DNA of 64,000 bases from Wenzhouxiangella sp. 15190 (GTDB taxonomy: Bacteria > Pseudomonadota > Gammaproteobacteria > Xanthomonadales > Wenzhouxiangellaceae), in the NCBI RefSeq assembly GCF_003417465.1, contig NZ_QVMV01000052.1:62001-126000 (forward strand). Reading direction: 5' to 3'. Shown here piece by piece: positions 11,547-56,170 of the stretch (positions are counted from its first letter, which is position 1; each line of letters opens with the position of its first letter). Below the pieces are notes generated by a model, which was given only the letters and a program-made list of their open reading frames with translations, was not told where the DNA came from and made no database searches. The position numbers were made by a program, and so were the translations under genes.

Positions 11547-11617
11547 GTTTGAAATTTTCAAATTCGAAGCATCAAGTACCAAACAAATTCGAATTTCCGA
11601 AATTCGAATGACCAAAA
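11547..11617. repeat. TTCGAA-word intergenic repeat, copy 1 (single arm)
   Basis: AT-rich stretch in the gap between rplS and the bactofilin gene, built of TTCGAA-type words: AAATTCGAAGCATCAAG, TACCAAACAAATTCGAA, CGAAATTCGAATGACCAAAA. It matches the left arm of the two-armed copies at 34544, 40917, 53495 and 55990, but I see no matching inverted right arm here. It makes no protein and contrasts strongly in GC content with both flanking genes. The rest of the gap (11473-11546) shows nothing recognisable. Confidence 0.75.
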
Positions 11618-11633
11618 CGCCCCATCCGTTTCA

Positions 11634-16798: not shown

Positions 16799-17624
16799 CG
16801 GGGGAGCGCTGGCGCCGGCTGCCGCCGGCGGCTGGCGCGAGCGGCTGGGCCGCTGGGTCGAGGGCCGGGCCTTCAGTCGCTTCATTATCGCGCTGATCGT
16901 CGTCAACGCGATCATCCTCGGCCTGGAAACCTCGTCCGCGGTAATGGCTCGTGCTGGCGACTTGTTGCTCGCGGCCAACACCGTCATTCTCGGCGTATTC
17001 ATCGTCGAGATCGGGCTCAAGCTCATCGCTTTCGGTCCGCGTTTCTTTCGCTCTGGCTGGAACGTGTTCGATTTTCTGGTCGTCGGTGCTTCGCTTGTGC
17101 CCACGGCCGGTCCGCTGGAAATCCTGCGCGCGCTTCGTGTCTTGCGGGTGCTGCGCCTGCTCTCGCAGGTGCCCAAGCTCAGGGTGATCATCGAGTCGCT
17201 CCTGCGCGCGCTGCCGGGCATGGGCTGGACGGCCCTGCTGTTGTTGCTGGTCTTCTATGTCTTCGCCGTGATGGGCACCATGCTCTTCGGTGAACGGTTC
17301 CCCGAGTACTGGGGTAGCCTGGGGGCGAGCCTGTTTTCGCTGTTCCAGATCATGACCCTCGAGTCGTGGTCCTCGGGCATCGCGCGGCCGATGATGGAAG
17401 CCATTCCCTGGGCCTGGGTCTTCTTCGTGCCGTTCATCCTGGTCTCGAGCTTCATGGTGCTCAACCTGTTCATCGCGATCATCGTGACCGCTACCCAGTC
17501 CATTCACCAGGACGAAGAGGACCTGGAGCGCCGACAGTTGCTCGAGGAGCTACGCTCGATCAACCAAAGACTCGCGCAGCTGGAGCGATTCCCGATAAAC
17601 GAACAGAAAGACAAAACACAGTAA
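16782..17624 (+). CDS. NaChBac-type voltage-gated sodium channel
   Basis: One-domain, six-helix voltage-gated channel; four subunits form the pore. In the 280 residues: S1 about 31-49, S2 65-84, S3 93-108, voltage sensor S4 112-134 with arginines R116, R119, R122 and R125 every third residue, S5 147-168, selectivity filter TLESWSS at 192-198, S6 213-236 with the conserved NLFIAIIV, and a C-terminal coiled coil at about 245-268. The filter is the sodium-selective type of NaChBac and NavAb (TLESWAS/TLESWSM). In alkaliphilic and marine bacteria such channels serve pH homeostasis and motility. The ATG at 16782 overlaps the htpG end; the first 28 residues are not membrane-spanning. A repeat element follows the stop. 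Confidence 0.93.
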   Translation: MPPRPDGGALAPAAAGGWRERLGRWVEGRAFSRFIIALIVVNAIILGLETSSAVMARAGDLLLAANTVILGVFIVEIGLKLIAFGPRFFRSGWNVFDFLVVGASLVPTAGPLEILRALRVLRVLRLLSQVPKLRVIIESLLRALPGMGWTALLLLLVFYVFAVMGTMLFGERFPEYWGSLGASLFSLFQIMTLESWSSGIARPMMEAIPWAWVFFVPFILVSSFMVLNLFIAIIVTATQSIHQDEEDLERRQLLEELRSINQRLAQLERFPINEQKDKTQ

Positions 17625-17698
17625 CCACGGAAGGGCACGGAATGCACGGATAGAACGTTTTTGGTTTTGTTCCGTGTTTTCCGTGTCTTCAGTGGTTT
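17623..17698. repeat. CACGGAA-word inverted repeat, copy 1
   Basis: Left arm AACCACGGAAGGGCACGGAA then TGCACGG (17623-17649) faces right arm TTCCGTGTTTTCCGTGTCTT then CAGTGGTTT (17670-17698), its imperfect reverse complement, around a 20-nt spacer. It starts at the last base of the sodium channel stop codon. The same words form the element at 26334-26467. Confidence 0.8.
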
Positions 17699-17700
17699 CA

Positions 17701-17728
17701 GGGTTTTGGGTTTTGGGTTTTGGGTTTT
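17701..17728. repeat. Heptamer tandem repeat (GGGTTTT) x4
   Basis: Four perfect copies of GGGTTTT directly after the inverted repeat and 43 bp before hslR. It is short enough to vary by slippage and its G-runs could form a G-quadruplex; no function is evident. Confidence 0.85.
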
Positions 17729-26333: not shown

Positions 26334-26467
26334 AACCACGGAAAGCACGGAAAACACGGAGTTAAATCAGCCTGGCGGCTGGGGCACCTGCTTCCTGCCA
26401 TGCGCGCCGGCCTGTCTTGACGATTCAAGTCGGCATTTTCCGTGAAGTTCCGTGATTTCCGTGGTTA
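26334..26467. repeat. CACGGAA-word inverted repeat, copy 2
   Basis: Left arm AACCACGGAAAGCACGGAAA then ACACGGAG (26334-26362); right arm TTTTCCGTGAAGTTCCGTGA then TTTCCGTGGTTA (26436-26467), imperfect reverse complements around a 73-nt GC-rich spacer. It fills the amiB-mutL gap (220 bp); a short T-rich tract follows the right arm (CTTTTTTGGTTTTT), so transcripts from amiB may end here. Confidence 0.8.
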
Positions 26468-34543: not shown

Positions 34544-34717
34544 AAAATTCGAAATCCGAAGCACCAAATCCGAAACAAATCCGAAATTCTAATGTTCAAA
34601 ACAGGCTTTTCCTTTTGCCGTGCAGCACGGAGTGTGACGTTGCCGAAGCGACTTCAGTTAGTTTCAAATTTGGTGCTTCGAATTTGTTTCGGATTTCGAG
34701 TTTCGGATTTCGAATTT
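34544..34717. repeat. TTCGAA-word inverted repeat, copy 2
   Basis: Left arm 34544-34603: AAATTCGAAATCCGAAGCAC, CAAATCCGAAACAAATCCGA, AATTCTAATGTTCAAAA. Right arm 34661-34717 is its approximate reverse complement: TTTCAAATTTGGTGCTTCGA, ATTTGTTTCGGATTTCGAG, TTTCGGATTTCGAATTTCG. The 57-nt spacer begins ACAGGCTTTTCC. The element occupies the gap between purA and serS; the right arm ends about 30 bp before the serS ATG, beside a -10-like TATAGA (34728-34733). Confidence 0.85.
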
Positions 34718-38240: not shown

Positions 38241-38447
38241 TTGTCCACAGATGAACACAGATGAACACAGATAAAACCCTAGAAGAAAATAGAAAAAAGA
38301 GAAAAGAGAAAGGAAAGATCATTGGGTGTTTCGGTTTGCAAGCGGCAGGCAGTGGTCTATCGCCCGCCAGACGCTCGGCCCGTTCTTGTTTTTCATCTGT
38401 GTTCATCTGTGTTCATCTGTGTTCATCTGTGTTTATCTGTGGACAAA
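38241..38447. repeat. AACACAGATG-word inverted repeat
   Basis: Left arm 38241-38276: TTGTCCACAGATGAACACAG then ATGAACACAGATAAAA. Right arm 38391-38447: TTTCATCTGTG, then the decamer TTCATCTGTG three more times, then TTTATCTGTGGACAAAT, i.e. the reverse complement with more decamer copies. The spacer is A-rich then GC-rich. It fills the pheA-hisC gap (285 bp) and ends about 40 bp before hisC. The unequal decamer number (2 against 4) suggests slippage. Confidence 0.85.
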
Positions 38448-39610: not shown

Positions 39611-40906
39611 ATGCGGCTGATCGTCCGTCCCGCAGCCCGGGCACTGAATGGCCGCTACCGCCCGCCGGGCGACAAGTCGGTGTCGCACCGGGCCGCGATT
39701 CTCGGCGGGCTGGCCGGCGGCGAGACCGAGATCCACGGATTTCTCGACAGTGCCGACACGCACGCCACGCTGTCGGCGATGCAACAGCTGGGCGCCCGCG
39801 TTGAAGAATCGAATGGCGTGATCCGAATGCGGGGCGGCTCGCTTCGTTCACCGACGGGACCGCTCGATCTCGGGAATTCCGGGACCGGCATGCGGCTGCT
39901 GGCCGGCGCCCTGGCGGGGCATCCGGACCTGCAGGAGAGCCGGATCGAACTGATCGGGGATGCATCGTTGTCGCGTCGGCCGATGAGTCGCATCATCGAC
40001 CCGCTGGCCCTCATGGGCGCACGGATCGACAGCCAGGAAAGCAGGGCGCCGCTGGTTATTGAGCCGAGTCCCCTGAACGGGAGACGGCATGCGCTGAATG
40101 TCGCCAGCGCCCAGGTCAAGTCGGCCATTCTTCTGGCAGGCCTGAATGCCGAGGGGGAAACCGTGGTGGTCGAGCCGGGCGTGAGCCGGGACCATACCGA
40201 GCGCATGCTGCCGGCCTTTGGTGCGTCACTGCACGACGGCGACCCGGGCGTGGCCATCCATGGTGGGCAGTCGCTGTCGGGCTGCCGCATCGACGTTCCG
40301 GGCGACCTGTCCTCGGCCGCATTCGCCCTGGCCGCCGGCTTGATGGTGGAAGGTTCGGAAATCGAACTGGATGGCGTCGGCCTCAACCCGACCCGCAGCG
40401 GCGTGATCGAAGTCGTCCAGGCCATGGGCGCAGGCCTGGTCATCGAAGGCGACCAGACCGAAGGCGGAGAGCCGCTCGGCCGCTTGACCGTTTCAGCCAG
40501 TTCCATATCCGGCGTGGATATCGCGCCCGAGCTGGTGCCCCTGGCCATCGACGAGTTTCCCCTGATCATGGCGCTCGCCGCCGCGGCCGACGGACGGACC
40601 CGGATTCGCGGCGCGAGCGAGTTGCGCGTCAAGGAATCCGACCGCATCGCCGTGATGTGCCGTGAACTGGCCCGGCTGGGCGTTGAACTGGAAGAACTCG
40701 ACGACGGCGCCATCATCACCGGCGGCCGGATCCACGGCGGGAACGTCGATAGCCACGGCGACCACCGCGTGGCCATGAGCCTGGCGGTGCTGGGCCTCGT
40801 CGCCGAGGGCCCGGTCACGATCGACAATGCCGAGTGGATTCGGACGAGTTATCCGGGGTTCGTGGATGACATGAGAGCGTTGGGGGCGGAGATGGAGTGG
40901 GAGTGA
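39611..40906 (+). CDS. aroA: 3-phosphoshikimate 1-carboxyvinyltransferase (EPSP synthase)
   Basis: Sixth step of the shikimate pathway, joining phosphoenolpyruvate and shikimate 3-phosphate. The 431 residues contain PPGDKSVSHRAAILGGLAGG, LDLGNSGTGMRLLAGALAGH, the active-site segment GDASLSRRPMSRII, LVPLAIDEFPLIMALAAAAD, RVKESDRIAVMCREL and GDHRVAMSLAVLGL. The PPGDKS/LGNSGT patterns are those of the class II-like group seen in Xanthomonadales and Bacilli rather than the E. coli type; that is a judgement from motif wording. It begins 3 bp after hisC and is not fused to tyrA. Confidence 0.96.
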   Translation: MRLIVRPAARALNGRYRPPGDKSVSHRAAILGGLAGGETEIHGFLDSADTHATLSAMQQLGARVEESNGVIRMRGGSLRSPTGPLDLGNSGTGMRLLAGALAGHPDLQESRIELIGDASLSRRPMSRIIDPLALMGARIDSQESRAPLVIEPSPLNGRRHALNVASAQVKSAILLAGLNAEGETVVVEPGVSRDHTERMLPAFGASLHDGDPGVAIHGGQSLSGCRIDVPGDLSSAAFALAAGLMVEGSEIELDGVGLNPTRSGVIEVVQAMGAGLVIEGDQTEGGEPLGRLTVSASSISGVDIAPELVPLAIDEFPLIMALAAAADGRTRIRGASELRVKESDRIAVMCRELARLGVELEELDDGAIITGGRIHGGNVDSHGDHRVAMSLAVLGLVAEGPVTIDNAEWIRTSYPGFVDDMRALGAEMEWE

Positions 40907-40916
40907 CGGTTGGAAG

Positions 40917-41051
40917 ATTCAAATTCGAAATTCGAAGCACCAAACTCGAAACAAATCCGAAATCCGAAATTCGAAAAGCCTGATTTCGAGCGTTTTGGGA
41001 TTTTTGTCATTCGTGCTTGTTTCGGATTTAGTGCTTCGAATTTCGTGCTTG
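40917..41051. repeat. TTCGAA-word inverted repeat, copy 3
   Basis: Left arm 40917-40977: ATTCAAATTCGAAATTCGAA, GCACCAAACTCGAAACAAAT, CCGAAATCCGAAATTCGAAA. Right arm about 41008-41051: TCATTCGTGCTTGTTTCGGA, TTTAGTGCTTCGAATTTCGT. The 30-nt spacer contains AAAGCCTGATTTCGAGCG. It lies between aroA and cmk, whose -10-like GATAAT (41060-41065) follows directly. Confidence 0.82.
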
Positions 41052-41094
41052 AGATCGTCGATAATGTCGCCACCCCGGAATCCCAGACAGACGC

Positions 41095-41799
41095 ATGACT
41101 GAAACCGCAGATAATCCAGTTCCCGTTCTCACCATCGACGGCCCCTCCGGCGCCGGAAAGGGGGCGGTTTCGGCGATCGTGGCCGAGCGCCTGGGGTGGC
41201 ACCTGCTCGATTCCGGGGCGGTTTACCGGGCGGTGGCGCTGGCCGCGCTCGACCGTGGCGTCGATCCCGAGGACGAAGCGGCCCTGACGGCATTGTGTGA
41301 AACGCTGGATCTTGAATTCCGCGCGGGCGAGGACGGCATCATCGTCCTGCTCGACGGCCGTGCCGTCGACGAGCGGCTGCGCAGCGAAGCGGTGTCGCTC
41401 ATGGCTTCCCGGGTCGCCTCCAATCCGGCCGTGCGTCGGGCCTTGTTGGGTCTGCAGCGGGATTTTCGGCAGTTGCCGGGCCTGGTGGCCGATGGTCGGG
41501 ACATGGGTACGGTGGTATTTTCCGATGCCCCGGTGAAGGTCTTTCTGGACGCCAGCGTGGAAGAACGTGCACGACGCCGGCATAAACAGTTGAAAGAAAA
41601 AGGAGAAAGTGTTAAATTCTCCCGTCTTTTTCACGACCTTGCCGAGCGCGACCGCAGGGATCGGGAACGAGCCGTCTCGCCGACGGTTCCGGCATCGGAC
41701 GCGACGGTCATCGATTCGACCGATCTGACGCTGGAGCAGGTGGTCGAACGGATTCTCGATCTGGTCGCCAATCGACCGGGTGGTGAAAGGAAAATCTGA
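41095..41799 (+). CDS. cmk: Cytidylate kinase
   Basis: Phosphorylates CMP and dCMP with ATP. The 234 residues carry the P-loop [59 protein letters not shown] and [20 protein letters not shown], all typical of Cmk. It precedes rpsA, the conserved gammaproteobacterial pair, with a 136-bp structured leader between. Confidence 0.97.
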
Positions 41800-49466: not shown

Positions 49467-50042
49467 ATGCTGACTGTCACACCTTCGGCCCGCGACTATT
49501 TCTCCGACCTCCTCGGCCAGCAGCCCGACGGCACCAACCTGCGTCTGCGCGTGACCAACCCGGGCACGCCCTCGGCGGACGTGGAACTGACCTATTGTGG
49601 CCCGGGCGAGCAGGCCGACAGCGACGAGGCTGTCGACTGCCAGGTGTTCACGCTGTTCGTTGATCAAACATCGGCCGAAACCCTCGACGGGGCCATGATC
49701 GATTTCGAGACCAACCGGATGGGCGGCGAATTGTGCATCCGTGCGCCCGGCCTGAAGGGGCATGCGCCGTCTGACGACGCCCCGCTGGAAGAGCGCGTGG
49801 CCTGGGTGCTGGAGACGAAGGTCAATCCCATGGTCGCGTCCCACGGCGGCCAGGTCGGCCTGGTGGAAGTCACCGACGACAACGACGTCGTGCTGCAATT
49901 CGGCGGCGGCTGCCACGGCTGCGGAATGGTCGACGTCACCCTCAAGCAGGGTATCGAGACGACGCTCCGGCAAGCCGTGCCCGAGGTGCGACAGGTGGTT
50001 GATGCCACTGATCACGCCGCTGGGGAGAATCCCTACTACTAA
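49467..50042 (+). CDS. nfuA: Fe-S biogenesis protein NfuA
   Basis: Carries and delivers 4Fe-4S clusters to target enzymes. The 191 residues have an N-terminal degenerate A-type domain (LTVTPSARDYFSDLLGQQPD, no cluster cysteines) and a C-terminal Nfu domain starting about ERVAWVLETKVNPMVASHGG with the cluster motif GGGCHGCGMVDVTLKQGIE (C-x2-C). Length equals E. coli NfuA. It is followed by the long non-coding region. Confidence 0.95.
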   Translation: MLTVTPSARDYFSDLLGQQPDGTNLRLRVTNPGTPSADVELTYCGPGEQADSDEAVDCQVFTLFVDQTSAETLDGAMIDFETNRMGGELCIRAPGLKGHAPSDDAPLEERVAWVLETKVNPMVASHGGQVGLVEVTDDNDVVLQFGGGCHGCGMVDVTLKQGIETTLRQAVPEVRQVVDATDHAAGENPYY

Positions 50043-50151
50043 AGGGGCGCTTTAAGTCCGGGGGTGCTGGGCCGGTTGGCACCACCGGGTGCTTCGGTGG
50101 CCTCGACACTTCAAAGGCTGTTTCGCCCGGCGCTTCGCGCTCTTGCGGCGA

Positions 50152-50181
50152 ATTCCTTTTACCTCGCGCGGTAAAAGGAAT
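50152..50181. repeat. Perfect 12-bp hairpin in left arm
   Basis: ATTCCTTTTACC (50152-50163), loop TCGCGC, GGTAAAAGGAAT (50170-50181). Together with the downstream CAAAAGCGCGC it forms the left-arm counterpart of the hairpin at 50587-50618. Confidence 0.85.
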
Positions 50182-50586
50182 CAAAAGCGCGCTGAAAAGA
50201 TTGCGGAGGCGCCGCAGGACAAACGGGACATGCGGGCTTCAGTATTCTGCTTGCGTCTTCGATTGGGCTCCGTCTAGACACATGGCGTCTCCGACGTCCC
50301 TGGGGCGTAATCTGCATTCTGACGGCACGACCTCGATCACCCCCGGCTTCGGCGAGGCTGCTGAAGATGGCTTCGGGTGAATGAGCGTTAGCTTCAAACC
50401 CGAGGCACGGCCCTCGAAGGCTCGCTTTCGAAGTCGTGAGGCTGCGTGCGGGCCTGATAATGTGGACGTCGTAAGCCCGCCTGCGTCTCAGAGAGTCAGA
50501 ACGAAGCCCCAGACAAAATACTGAAGCCACTCCCGCTGCAACTCCCGAGAGGAAAATCGCGCGCTTTTGACTTTAAGCGCGCTTTT

Positions 50587-50618
50587 GGTGACTTTTCTCG
50601 CGCAAGAGAAAAGTTACC
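50587..50618. repeat. 13-bp hairpin in right arm
   Basis: GGTGACTTTTCTC (50587-50599), loop GCGCAA, GAGAAAAGTTACC (50606-50618), with one G-T pair. It follows GCGCGCTTTTG, itself present twice (from about 50559 and 50578). Confidence 0.85.
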
Positions 50619-50627
50619 CGCCATCAG

Positions 50628-50780
50628 CCTGCGAAGCAGGCGGGCGGAACAGAAGTTGACTTGTCGAAGTCCGCACAGCGGCCTTGGGGCAACAAGTTGT
50701 TTGCCGACAAGGCAGTGAAGGCGCCGCCGCAAGAGCCTGCGAAGCAGGCCGGGCGAAACCGCCTTTGACTTGTCGAGGCT
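50628..50780. repeat. Direct repeats of the CCTGCGAAGCAGG module, period 108 bp
   Basis: Two copies: CCTGCGAAGCAGGCGGGCGG (50628) and CCTGCGAAGCAGGCCGGGCG (50736), each followed within 20 bp by a TTGACTTGTCGA block. A decayed third copy (GCGGAGCAGGCAAGAGAAAC) lies near 50836. Each CCTGCGAAGCAGG is itself a small hairpin. Confidence 0.75.
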
Positions 50781-50876
50781 CGCACCGCTTGCGGCGACAT
50801 CAATCAGCCCAGCGGCAGCGAAGTTGAATCCGCCCGCGGAGCAGGCAAGAGAAACCGCCCTGGATACATCCGGCTG

Positions 50877-51215
50877 TTACTCGTCGATTTGCGGCGTGAC
50901 CAGTCCTTCCTGGCTGGCGTACCAGGCTGCCAGATCGGCGATGTCCTGGTCGCTGAGGCCGCTGGCGAAACCCTGCATCTGCGCGTTCTGGCGTTCGCCG
51001 GAGCGGTATTGCTTGAGGGCGTATTCCAGGTAGCCGGCATGCTGGCCGCCGAGCTTCGGCGTGTCCGGCGTGGCGGTCATGTTGCCGTCCTTGCCGTGGC
51101 AGGCCTGGCAGGACTGGGATTTTTCGAGTCCGCGGCTGGCATTGCCGGCGGCCAGCGCATCGTTGCCGATCAGCAGAAGCAGGGAGGCGGCGAGAGTCAG
51201 GGCAAACGGCTTCAT
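50877..51215 (-). CDS. Small periplasmic cytochrome c
   Basis: Secreted monohaem cytochrome c of 112 residues: signal peptide (MKPFALTLAASLLLLIGNDA-LA), haem motif CQACHGKDG, and a probable methionine ligand in the NAQMQGFASGLSDQDIADLA segment. The sequence resembles class I cytochromes of the c553/c4-domain type. It overlaps the preceding cytochrome gene by four bases, so the two are made together, probably as one electron-transfer pair comparable to the two domains of cytochrome c4. Confidence 0.92.
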   Translation of the reverse strand: MKPFALTLAASLLLLIGNDALAAGNASRGLEKSQSCQACHGKDGNMTATPDTPKLGGQHAGYLEYALKQYRSGERQNAQMQGFASGLSDQDIADLAAWYASQEGLVTPQIDE

Positions 51216-53494: not shown

Positions 53495-53685
53495 CGAAAT
53501 CCGAAATTCGAAGCACCAAATCCGAAACAAAACCCAATGACCAAAATCGCAATGACCGAAACGAAACCGTGCCAAGCCTTCGTTTCGTTGCTGTAGATCC
53601 TCTGTGGGAGTTTGTTTGAAATTTGGAATTTCGAACATTCGAATTTGTTTCGGATTTGGTGCTTGAGATTTCGAATTTGAGGCAT
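53495..53685. repeat. TTCGAA-word inverted repeat, copy 4
   Basis: Left arm 53495-53562: CGAAATCCGAAATTCGAAGC, ACCAAATCCGAAACAAAACC, CAATGACCAAAATCGCAATG, ACCGAAACG. Right arm about 53610-53685: TTTGTTTGAAATTTGGAATT, TCGAACATTCGAATTTGTTT, CGGATTTGGTGCTTGAGATT, TCGAATTTG. The spacer contains AAACGAAACC facing TTCGTTTCG. It fills the gap between gcdH and the E1 gene. Confidence 0.82.
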
Positions 53686-55973: not shown

Positions 55974-55989
55974 GTAGAGGACTGGTCAA

Positions 55990-56170
55990 GCACGAAATTC
56001 GAAGTACCAAATTCGAAACAAATTCGAATGACAGAAAGCCAAATGACAGAAACAGGCTTTCGTCTTCACTCGTAGCGACAGCCTATCCACGTGGCCGGTG
56101 TTCGTTTCGGGCATTGGCATTTTGAACATTCGAGCTTGTTTCGAATTTGGTGCTTCGGATTTCGAGTTTC
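55990..56170. repeat. TTCGAA-word inverted repeat, copy 5
   Basis: Left arm 55990-56055: AGCACGAAATTCGAAGTACC, AAATTCGAAACAAATTCGAA, TGACAGAAAGCCAAATGACA. Right arm about 56101-56170: TTCGTTTCGGGCATTGGCAT, TTTGAACATTCGAGCTTGTT, TCGAATTTGGTGCTTCGGAT, TTCGAGTTT. The spacer begins ACAGGCTTTCG, the same ACAGGCTTT seen in copy 2 (34601-34609). Confidence 0.85.

Follow-up and report, generated by a model that had tools for sequence, protein, structure and literature searches.

What are the short, AT-rich inverted repeats of TTCGAA-type words that recur between the genes of Wenzhouxiangella sp. 15190? An initial annotation of one 64,000-nucleotide stretch of DNA (here, the window; bases 62001–126000 of contig 53 in a 3.13 Mb genome of 55 contigs) had listed five copies, and had offered RNA hairpins, transcription stops and protein-binding arrays as possible roles. 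The reading we favor, with a probability of roughly 60%, is that the five are non-autonomous copies, lacking the gene, of a dispersed small mobile element that resembles an IVS and whose protein recognizes its own word. The kinship of the window copies with a full-length element is well supported, and from the patterns described below we infer a mechanism of movement.

A dispersed family of inverted word repeats

All five copies (at 11547, 34544, 40917, 53495 and 55990) are present, and each lies within a gap between the gene models used, as the initial annotation had stated. The pattern GAAGCACCAAANNCGAAACAAA, allowing up to three mismatches, was matched ten times in the window; 100 dinucleotide shuffles gave no match. 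The phrase said to be common to all five copies stands as a mark of the family, but it is not exact in every one, with three mismatches at 11547 and one at 55990. The second, inverted arm that had been claimed for four copies was found in those four (arms of 56–66 nt, complementarity of 73–80%, spacing of 16–70 nt; Table 1), and the 11547 copy is a single arm, one of many copies of this kind. The inner motif AATGNNCN(N)AAAC occurs four times on the two strands of the 64 kb window, each time within a family copy, and Rfam yielded no match in the window. These results support a true multi-copy, intergenic and inverted family.

The window carries two more word families, CACGGAAA and ACACAGATGA, that the initial annotation had left unnamed. 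Another CACGGAA array with an inverted partner lies at 17617–17728, beside four perfect GGGTTTT heptamers. Non-word inverted repeats of the CCCGCCTGCTTCGCAGGC type, found at 50042–50877 and at the same junction in the relative G024, form a separate repeat family.

Table 1 Word-repeat features of the window
Feature	Position	Strand	Remark
One-armed copy	11547..11619	+	terminates in AATGACCAAAACG (11607–11619)
Related design, other word family (CACGGAAA), gene-less	26337..26463	.	arms 26337–26360 and 26437–26463
Left arm, two-armed gene-less copy, purA-serS junction	34545..34600	+	inner AATGTTCAAAAC at 34591
Right arm, purA-serS junction copy	34662..34717	-	arms 80% complementary
Related design, other word family (ACACAGATGA)	38245..38442	.	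arms 38245–38272 and 38392–38442
Left arm, aroA-cmk junction copy	40919..40977	+	
Right arm, aroA-cmk junction copy	40994..41052	-	arms 73% complementary
Left arm, 53.5 kb copy	53497..53552	+	
AATGACCGAAACG in 53.5 kb copy	53551..53563	+	identical to the four-helix-bundle gene start of full-length element L035
Right arm, 53.5 kb copy	53623..53678	-	arms 79% complementary
Left arm, 56.0 kb copy	55988..56053	+	
Right arm, 56.0 kb copy	56104..56169	-	inner AATGCCCGAAAC at 56104; arms 77% complementary

The phrase extends beyond the window: a genome-wide pattern search returned 93 matches in 69 places, and the reversed control pattern returned none. Two arms are present at 34 places, with a median length of 152 nt (inner gap, 35 nt), and one arm at the other 35. 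Longer DNA (2.0–5.0 kb) around 13 of the supposed one-armed places contained a single arm in 11 cases and a further arm pair in two. A loose form of the inner motif, which is also the gene-start motif of the full-length element, was present in 14 of the 34 two-armed and 21 of the 35 one-armed places.

A tree built from four coding blocks unites ten species, this one included, in a single clade (support 1.0). The TTCGAA phrase was detected in 8 of 30 genomes, GTGTGAAG in five and TTGGCTGG in nine; the backwards control of the GTGTGAAG search itself gives matches, because the control pattern is part of the GTGTGAAG array. The word families tried are restricted to a part of the genus: every genome that has them belongs to the ten-species clade, apart from G008, which is not placed in the tree.

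A full-length element with a four-helix-bundle gene

The absence of a transposase noted in the initial annotation holds for the five copies, and they are probably partnered by a four-helix-bundle gene at another place in this genome. PF05635 (23S rRNA-intervening sequence protein, four-helix bundle) is represented by five genes in this genome and by none in 14 control genomes. One of the five, locus L035, lies outside the window at the spoT-ridA junction, between two TTCGAA-family arms that include GAAGCACCAAAT(A/C)CGAAACAAA; its product scores 51.5 bits against PF05635 and 66 bits against TIGR02436. The gene starts with GAATGACCGAAACG, which has counterparts in the window at 53551 and 11607 (Table 1). 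The full-length form is a word arm, a four-helix-bundle gene and an inverted word arm, together about 0.5 kb, and the mobile-element reading gains from the presence, around a PF05635 gene, of the arms and the inner phrase seen in the window copies. The remaining four PF05635 genes are likewise enclosed by inverted word arms, with the words AATAGAA, GCTGGTTG, TCTGTGG and GTGTGAA; arms around five of five such genes, together with an inner motif confined to family copies in the window, favor the same reading.

A gene of the L035 type occupies the same spoT-ridA junction in three species (this genome, G016 and G010), with more diverged arms in G016 and G010. The dN/dS of 0.089 between the G016 and G010 genes indicates purifying selection, so that the protein retains its function as the arms drift. 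The values for four other orthologous PF05635 pairs were 0.112, 0.199, 0.212 and 0.018; a further three comparisons reached saturation. Retention of a selected gene at one junction in three species adds to the case for a mobile element. Two independent insertions, one for L035 and one for the G016/G010 genes, were considered and dropped, as the genes share one junction; that the three form one orthologous locus counts against the mobile-element reading. Also against it, G024 (97% complete) has ten pattern matches, yet its sole PF05635 match does not score as one of the L035 type. Viral contigs contained six stretches of the pattern and no relative of the L035 protein, and in a phylum sample such relatives were found in 5 of 299 genomes, its own included.

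Solved structures related by sequence are 2GSC (XCC0516) and 2RLD. Avd, a nucleic-acid-binding accessory protein of diversity-generating retroelements, forms a pentamer and has a related four-helix-bundle fold; it was not among the matches of the PDB sequence searches. The accessible text of PMC4990558 describes 2GSC as a homopentamer and the S23 four-helix-bundle family as having no known function.

Word arms around PF05635 genes in other genomes

Matches to PF05635 were present in 47 of 101 genomes of a set of relatives. Among the matches listed, this genome and its relatives contributed 34 loci, of which eight at contig ends were dropped; 23 of the 26 scorable loci outscored each of their own four shifted-window controls, and L040, L046 and L061 failed. 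A set of named loci comprised the best 80 of 577, less two with short flanks, and in 61 of the 78 scored the arm match exceeded the 99% level of swapped arms (median 37.5 vs. 19). The best word period among these 61 was 7 in 45, 8 in 11, 9 in three and another value in two, and their record titles span some 20 phylum-level names, many of them MAGs. With far flanks as the control, 53 of 66 loci lay above the 99% level and 48 above the maximum. All three arm tests argue for the mobile-element reading, and the 17 of 78 named loci that fail, like the three nearer ones, count against it.

Outside their arms, L070 and L078 have unlike surroundings, and they are 71% alike over about 490 nt bounded by the arms; this likeness, limited to arm, gene and arm, again supports a mobile element. 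L069 and L080 have the left arm and the gene in common, and their right arms did not align, a point against that reading; five further close PF05635 pairs are orthologous loci. PF05635 genes appear on plasmids in 23 records. In three relatives of the same order, PF05635 genes are flanked by GGGATTC/GGGAATC arms (L047, L053 and L060). In one relative, three PF05635 genes fall inside 3 kb (G034:C50:24262-27154). The loci L073 and L074, titled Chloroflexi and Bacteroidetes, were considered as a case of inter-phylum transfer, which was dropped: their flanks align over 2.5 kb at 83%, so that one bin is probably mislabelled (a misbinned MAG contig).

Protein pairs of at least 70% identity had a mean word similarity of 0.54 (10 pairs, three above 0.6), and pairs of 40–50% identity one of 0.17 (1585 pairs). 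Words are thus on average closer between close proteins, in keeping with the mobile-element reading, and L076 and L089, both within the closest group, have quite different words. Since few close pairs have similar words and most of the compared close pairs are orthologous, the co-drift of protein and word is weakly tested by these figures, which counts against the reading. Both arms changed in concert clearly in one of five orthologous pairs (L117/L124), and concerted rewriting of both arms was accordingly abandoned as a rule.

Word turnover at fixed junctions

That the words change while the inverted design is kept had been proposed from the window copies, and comparison of the same junction across species bears this out. 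At three junctions (aroA-cmk, purA-serS and spoT-ridA), at which the words were read by eye, related species carry arms of different words. At aroA-cmk (21 species), a repeat is present in all nine clade members with data; eight are two-armed, with six different words, and G027 has another tandem repeat. Outside the clade, where the two genes often overlap or nearly touch, none of 12 species is two-armed, three are one-armed (other words) and nine have nothing. The purA-serS junction (17 species) is two-armed in seven of ten clade members (TTCGAA in four, AAGGCGC words in three) and in none of seven species outside the clade, the remaining three clade members having one arm or a possible remnant. 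At spoT-ridA (21 species), three species have a gene between the arms, four are two-armed with other words, five have one arm or a remnant, G013 has four arrays, G003 has a possible relic, three have none and four have ridA with other neighbours. The G013 arrays (L349; GGTGAAA, GACGGGA, CCGTAAA and CCCTGAA) stand in a row and resemble stacked layers of successive elements.

Fifteen junctions, with a gap of 45 bp or more in each genome, were compared between the window and G024, omitting two junctions with non-word inverted repeats and those unmapped or too far apart; shuffled gaps score at most 27. Five were occupied in both genomes with different words, one in ours only, none in G024 only and nine in neither (G000/G024 co-occupancy, one-sided Fisher calculated by hand, 6/3003 = 0.002). 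At aroA-cmk, a promoter-like TATAAT(G), identified by eye, lies outside the arms in G000 and G016 and between them in G003 and G024, a difference in placement that points to separate insertions. Also by eye, the arms at this junction (window 40906–41095; L198) look exchanged between G000 and G016, the left arm of each being similar to the other's right arm, as though recombination between the arms had inverted the interior. Orthologous sites are too diverged for exact element ends to be set, and hence no target-site duplication was established; this counts against the mobile-element reading, as does the fact that no movement was observed.

RNA and terminator tests

Two of the roles that had been suggested for the repeats gained no support. 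Within copies, no compensatory base change was found beyond that of swapped arms (own arms 29.41, swapped 29.43, p = 0.48), which argues against an RNA hairpin held by such change, and 84 elements gave no wobble bias (wobble 105 vs. anti-wobble 101, p = 0.83); both results are expected of DNA sites and not of an RNA stem. Folded as RNA, 34544–34717 reached −65.6 kcal/mol (z = −7.2), a strong hairpin potential that is expected of any inverted pair. A role as transcription stop found no support either, as the two-armed copies at 34.5, 40.9, 53.5 and 56.0 kb lack a terminator-like site, that is, an intrinsic terminator of a GC-rich stem followed by a T run.

An array recognized by a protein is the best of the three suggestions, and we infer that the arms are DNA recognition arrays for the element's own protein. 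Under the refuting condition set in the initial annotation, the element would count as low-complexity drift, but that label does not suit it, since a specific phrase is shared and the full-length arms enclose a conserved gene. Taken together, the inverted family and the changing words of the initial annotation are supported, its protein array is the most likely of the three roles, and its RNA hairpin and transcription stop are not supported.

A second protein family in the same design

Word arrays are known to accompany GxxExxY genes, a lead that was tested in this analysis. Genes of this family (PF13366, PDDEXK_3) were found in 28 of 61 genomes, as well as in three of the 14 controls. Thirty loci, less four partial matches and one with a short flank, left 25, of which 24 had an arm score of at least 31 (median of the 25, 50; swapped median, 22); the test was judged by medians because these loci are not oriented to the gene strand, which makes the swapped-arm 99% limit unusable. 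The best period was 9 or 10 in 18 of the 24 loci; L262 fails the arm test and L247 is doubtful. The window arrays at 26.3 and 38.2 kb have words of the PF13366-associated kind, and ACACAGATGA words also flank a GxxExxY gene (L251) in the relative G003. An unrelated family within the same design means that the genes could be passengers of arms made otherwise, which counts against the mobile-element reading.

A proposed mechanism and its alternatives

In the mechanism we propose, the protein would bind DNA at the short words that make up the two arms of its element. The bound arms would be paired, and some activity, of the host or of unknown origin, would copy the intervening stretch or transfer it to a different intergenic site. 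No catalytic motif or centre is, to our knowledge, known in the PF05635 family, which counts against the mobile-element reading; the chemistry would thus fall to a host nuclease, a replication fork or a polymerase. Mobilization in trans might then also act on single arms and on copies with internal deletions, and so produce the one-armed and two-armed copies, as their shared arms suggest. Protein and word would drift together towards a private word per lineage, a step supported mainly by vertical comparison. Junctions once opened may be struck repeatedly, which would account for the observed turnover of words at one site between species.

The same copies could instead be useful to the host as 3′ hairpins, with a two-armed copy stabilizing the upstream message or insulating the downstream gene, and with the site kept and the word free, whatever the origin. 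The strong fold, the intergenic position and the repeat at aroA-cmk in every clade species with data despite differing words would suit such a role, but a long stem is impossible at the 35 of 69 places that are one-armed, the two-armed copies have no terminator-like site, and neither covariation nor wobble bias is seen; we consider this explanation unlikely. Equally improbable, in our view, is that replication made the arms through short-word slippage and template switching across inverted repeats, the genes being passengers that settled in the loops. Polymerase slippage is cited for heptamers in the available part of PMC4692102, word arrays appear by eye to expand and mix, as in the four-array row of G013, the L117/L124 arms changed in concert, and two unrelated gene families lie within the same design. 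Against this stand one specific phrase common to 69 dispersed places, one gene family with flanking arms in records whose titles cover some 20 phylum-level names, and an arm-gene-arm unit common to unlike sites (one full case), and concerted change was clear in only one of five orthologous pairs.

By far the least probable alternative is that a RAYT (Y1/HUH) transposase acting in trans mobilizes the copies as REPINs. Two inverted units, singlets, extragenic position and high copy number make for a similar layout, and the genome has three Y1 genes, two of them in frames of 237 and 270 aa; however, no TTCGAA arm lies within 1.5 kb on each side of the three (best scores 17–25, compared with 76 and 95 at L035), and two are flanked by arms that differ in sequence (scores 28 and 38). 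Y1 (RAYT-type) genes without TTCGAA arms in turn favor the mobile-element reading with a four-helix-bundle partner. The other, weaker arms at the RAYT-like Y1 loci L352 and L353 (GTAGGTCG... and ACAGATGCGTT...) perhaps represent a separate repeat system.

More tentatively than for the five copies, we suggest that these data could reflect a class of bacterial mobile elements that has so far gone undescribed as a class, has no known transposase and is present in records with some 20 phylum-level names in their titles. Its four-helix-bundle protein, pentameric in a solved relative, would recognize a private word of 7–8 bp in two inverted arms and move or copy what they enclose; the Xanthomonas and cyanobacterial heptamers and the rRNA IVS might be gene-less and rRNA-borne forms, and GxxExxY (PDDEXK_3) would run the same design, mostly with 9–10 bp words. 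Among the open-licence papers listed, none linking PF05635 genes to dispersed word arms was found, an absence that is weak evidence. The S23 family is common and has a solved structure; linking it to the word arms, as a putative specific DNA partner, opens the way to a direct binding test. If the proposal is true, separately described repeats (the Xanthomonas and Nostoc heptamers, possibly STRR, and rRNA IVS) would have one cause, and word replacement at fixed junctions would be a natural record of element turnover inside genomes.

Comparison with known systems

REPIN-RAYT systems comprise two inverted units and singlets in extragenic positions, with one protein gene flanked by its own repeat. 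The layout of the present family is of this type, given its two-armed and one-armed places and the extragenic position, which was checked for the five window copies, and none of the three Y1 genes is flanked by the same repeat. The REPIN-RAYT protein is a Y1/HUH transposase, whereas the protein here is PF05635. Nor do the copies have terminal repeats in common with a transposase element, as MITEs do, when Y1 transposases alone are considered; the partner found carries PF05635.

Cyanobacterial STRR, as described in the available text of PMC2670836, are repeats of about 7 bp able to form hairpins and in that description resemble the present words; unlike for the present family, no protein link is given there. 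The Xanthomonas and Nostoc heptamers, GGGNATC and GGGGA(C/T)T, are mostly intergenic, are arranged in two of the Xanthomonas genomes as inverted pairs (70 and 75), keep their sites while varying in sequence and length, and are read as G-quadruplex sequences of unknown function (PMC4692102, in its accessible part, where the terms 'four helix' and 'S23' are absent). They share with the present family the 7-bp words, the intergenic place and the inverted pairing. The word is free here, however, and AT-rich in the window, and TTCGAA and TCCGAA contain no run of three G, whereas G-quadruplex heptamers have G tracts in every word.

The element shares its protein family with the 23S rRNA IVS, for example that of Coxiella burnetii, which, in the available text of PMC4990558, has inverted ends around one small ORF, is likewise sporadic in spread and suspected to be mobile, and has tandem heptamers immediately before the ORF. 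The full-length element has an S23/23S_rRNA_IVP ORF inside and inverted terminal repeats around the insert, and the five window copies are without the ORF. IVS are inserted into helices of the 23S rRNA, from which RNase III excises them; the present copies and their full-length element, in contrast, lie between protein genes, and the family includes gene-less and one-armed copies without an RNA-stem signal.
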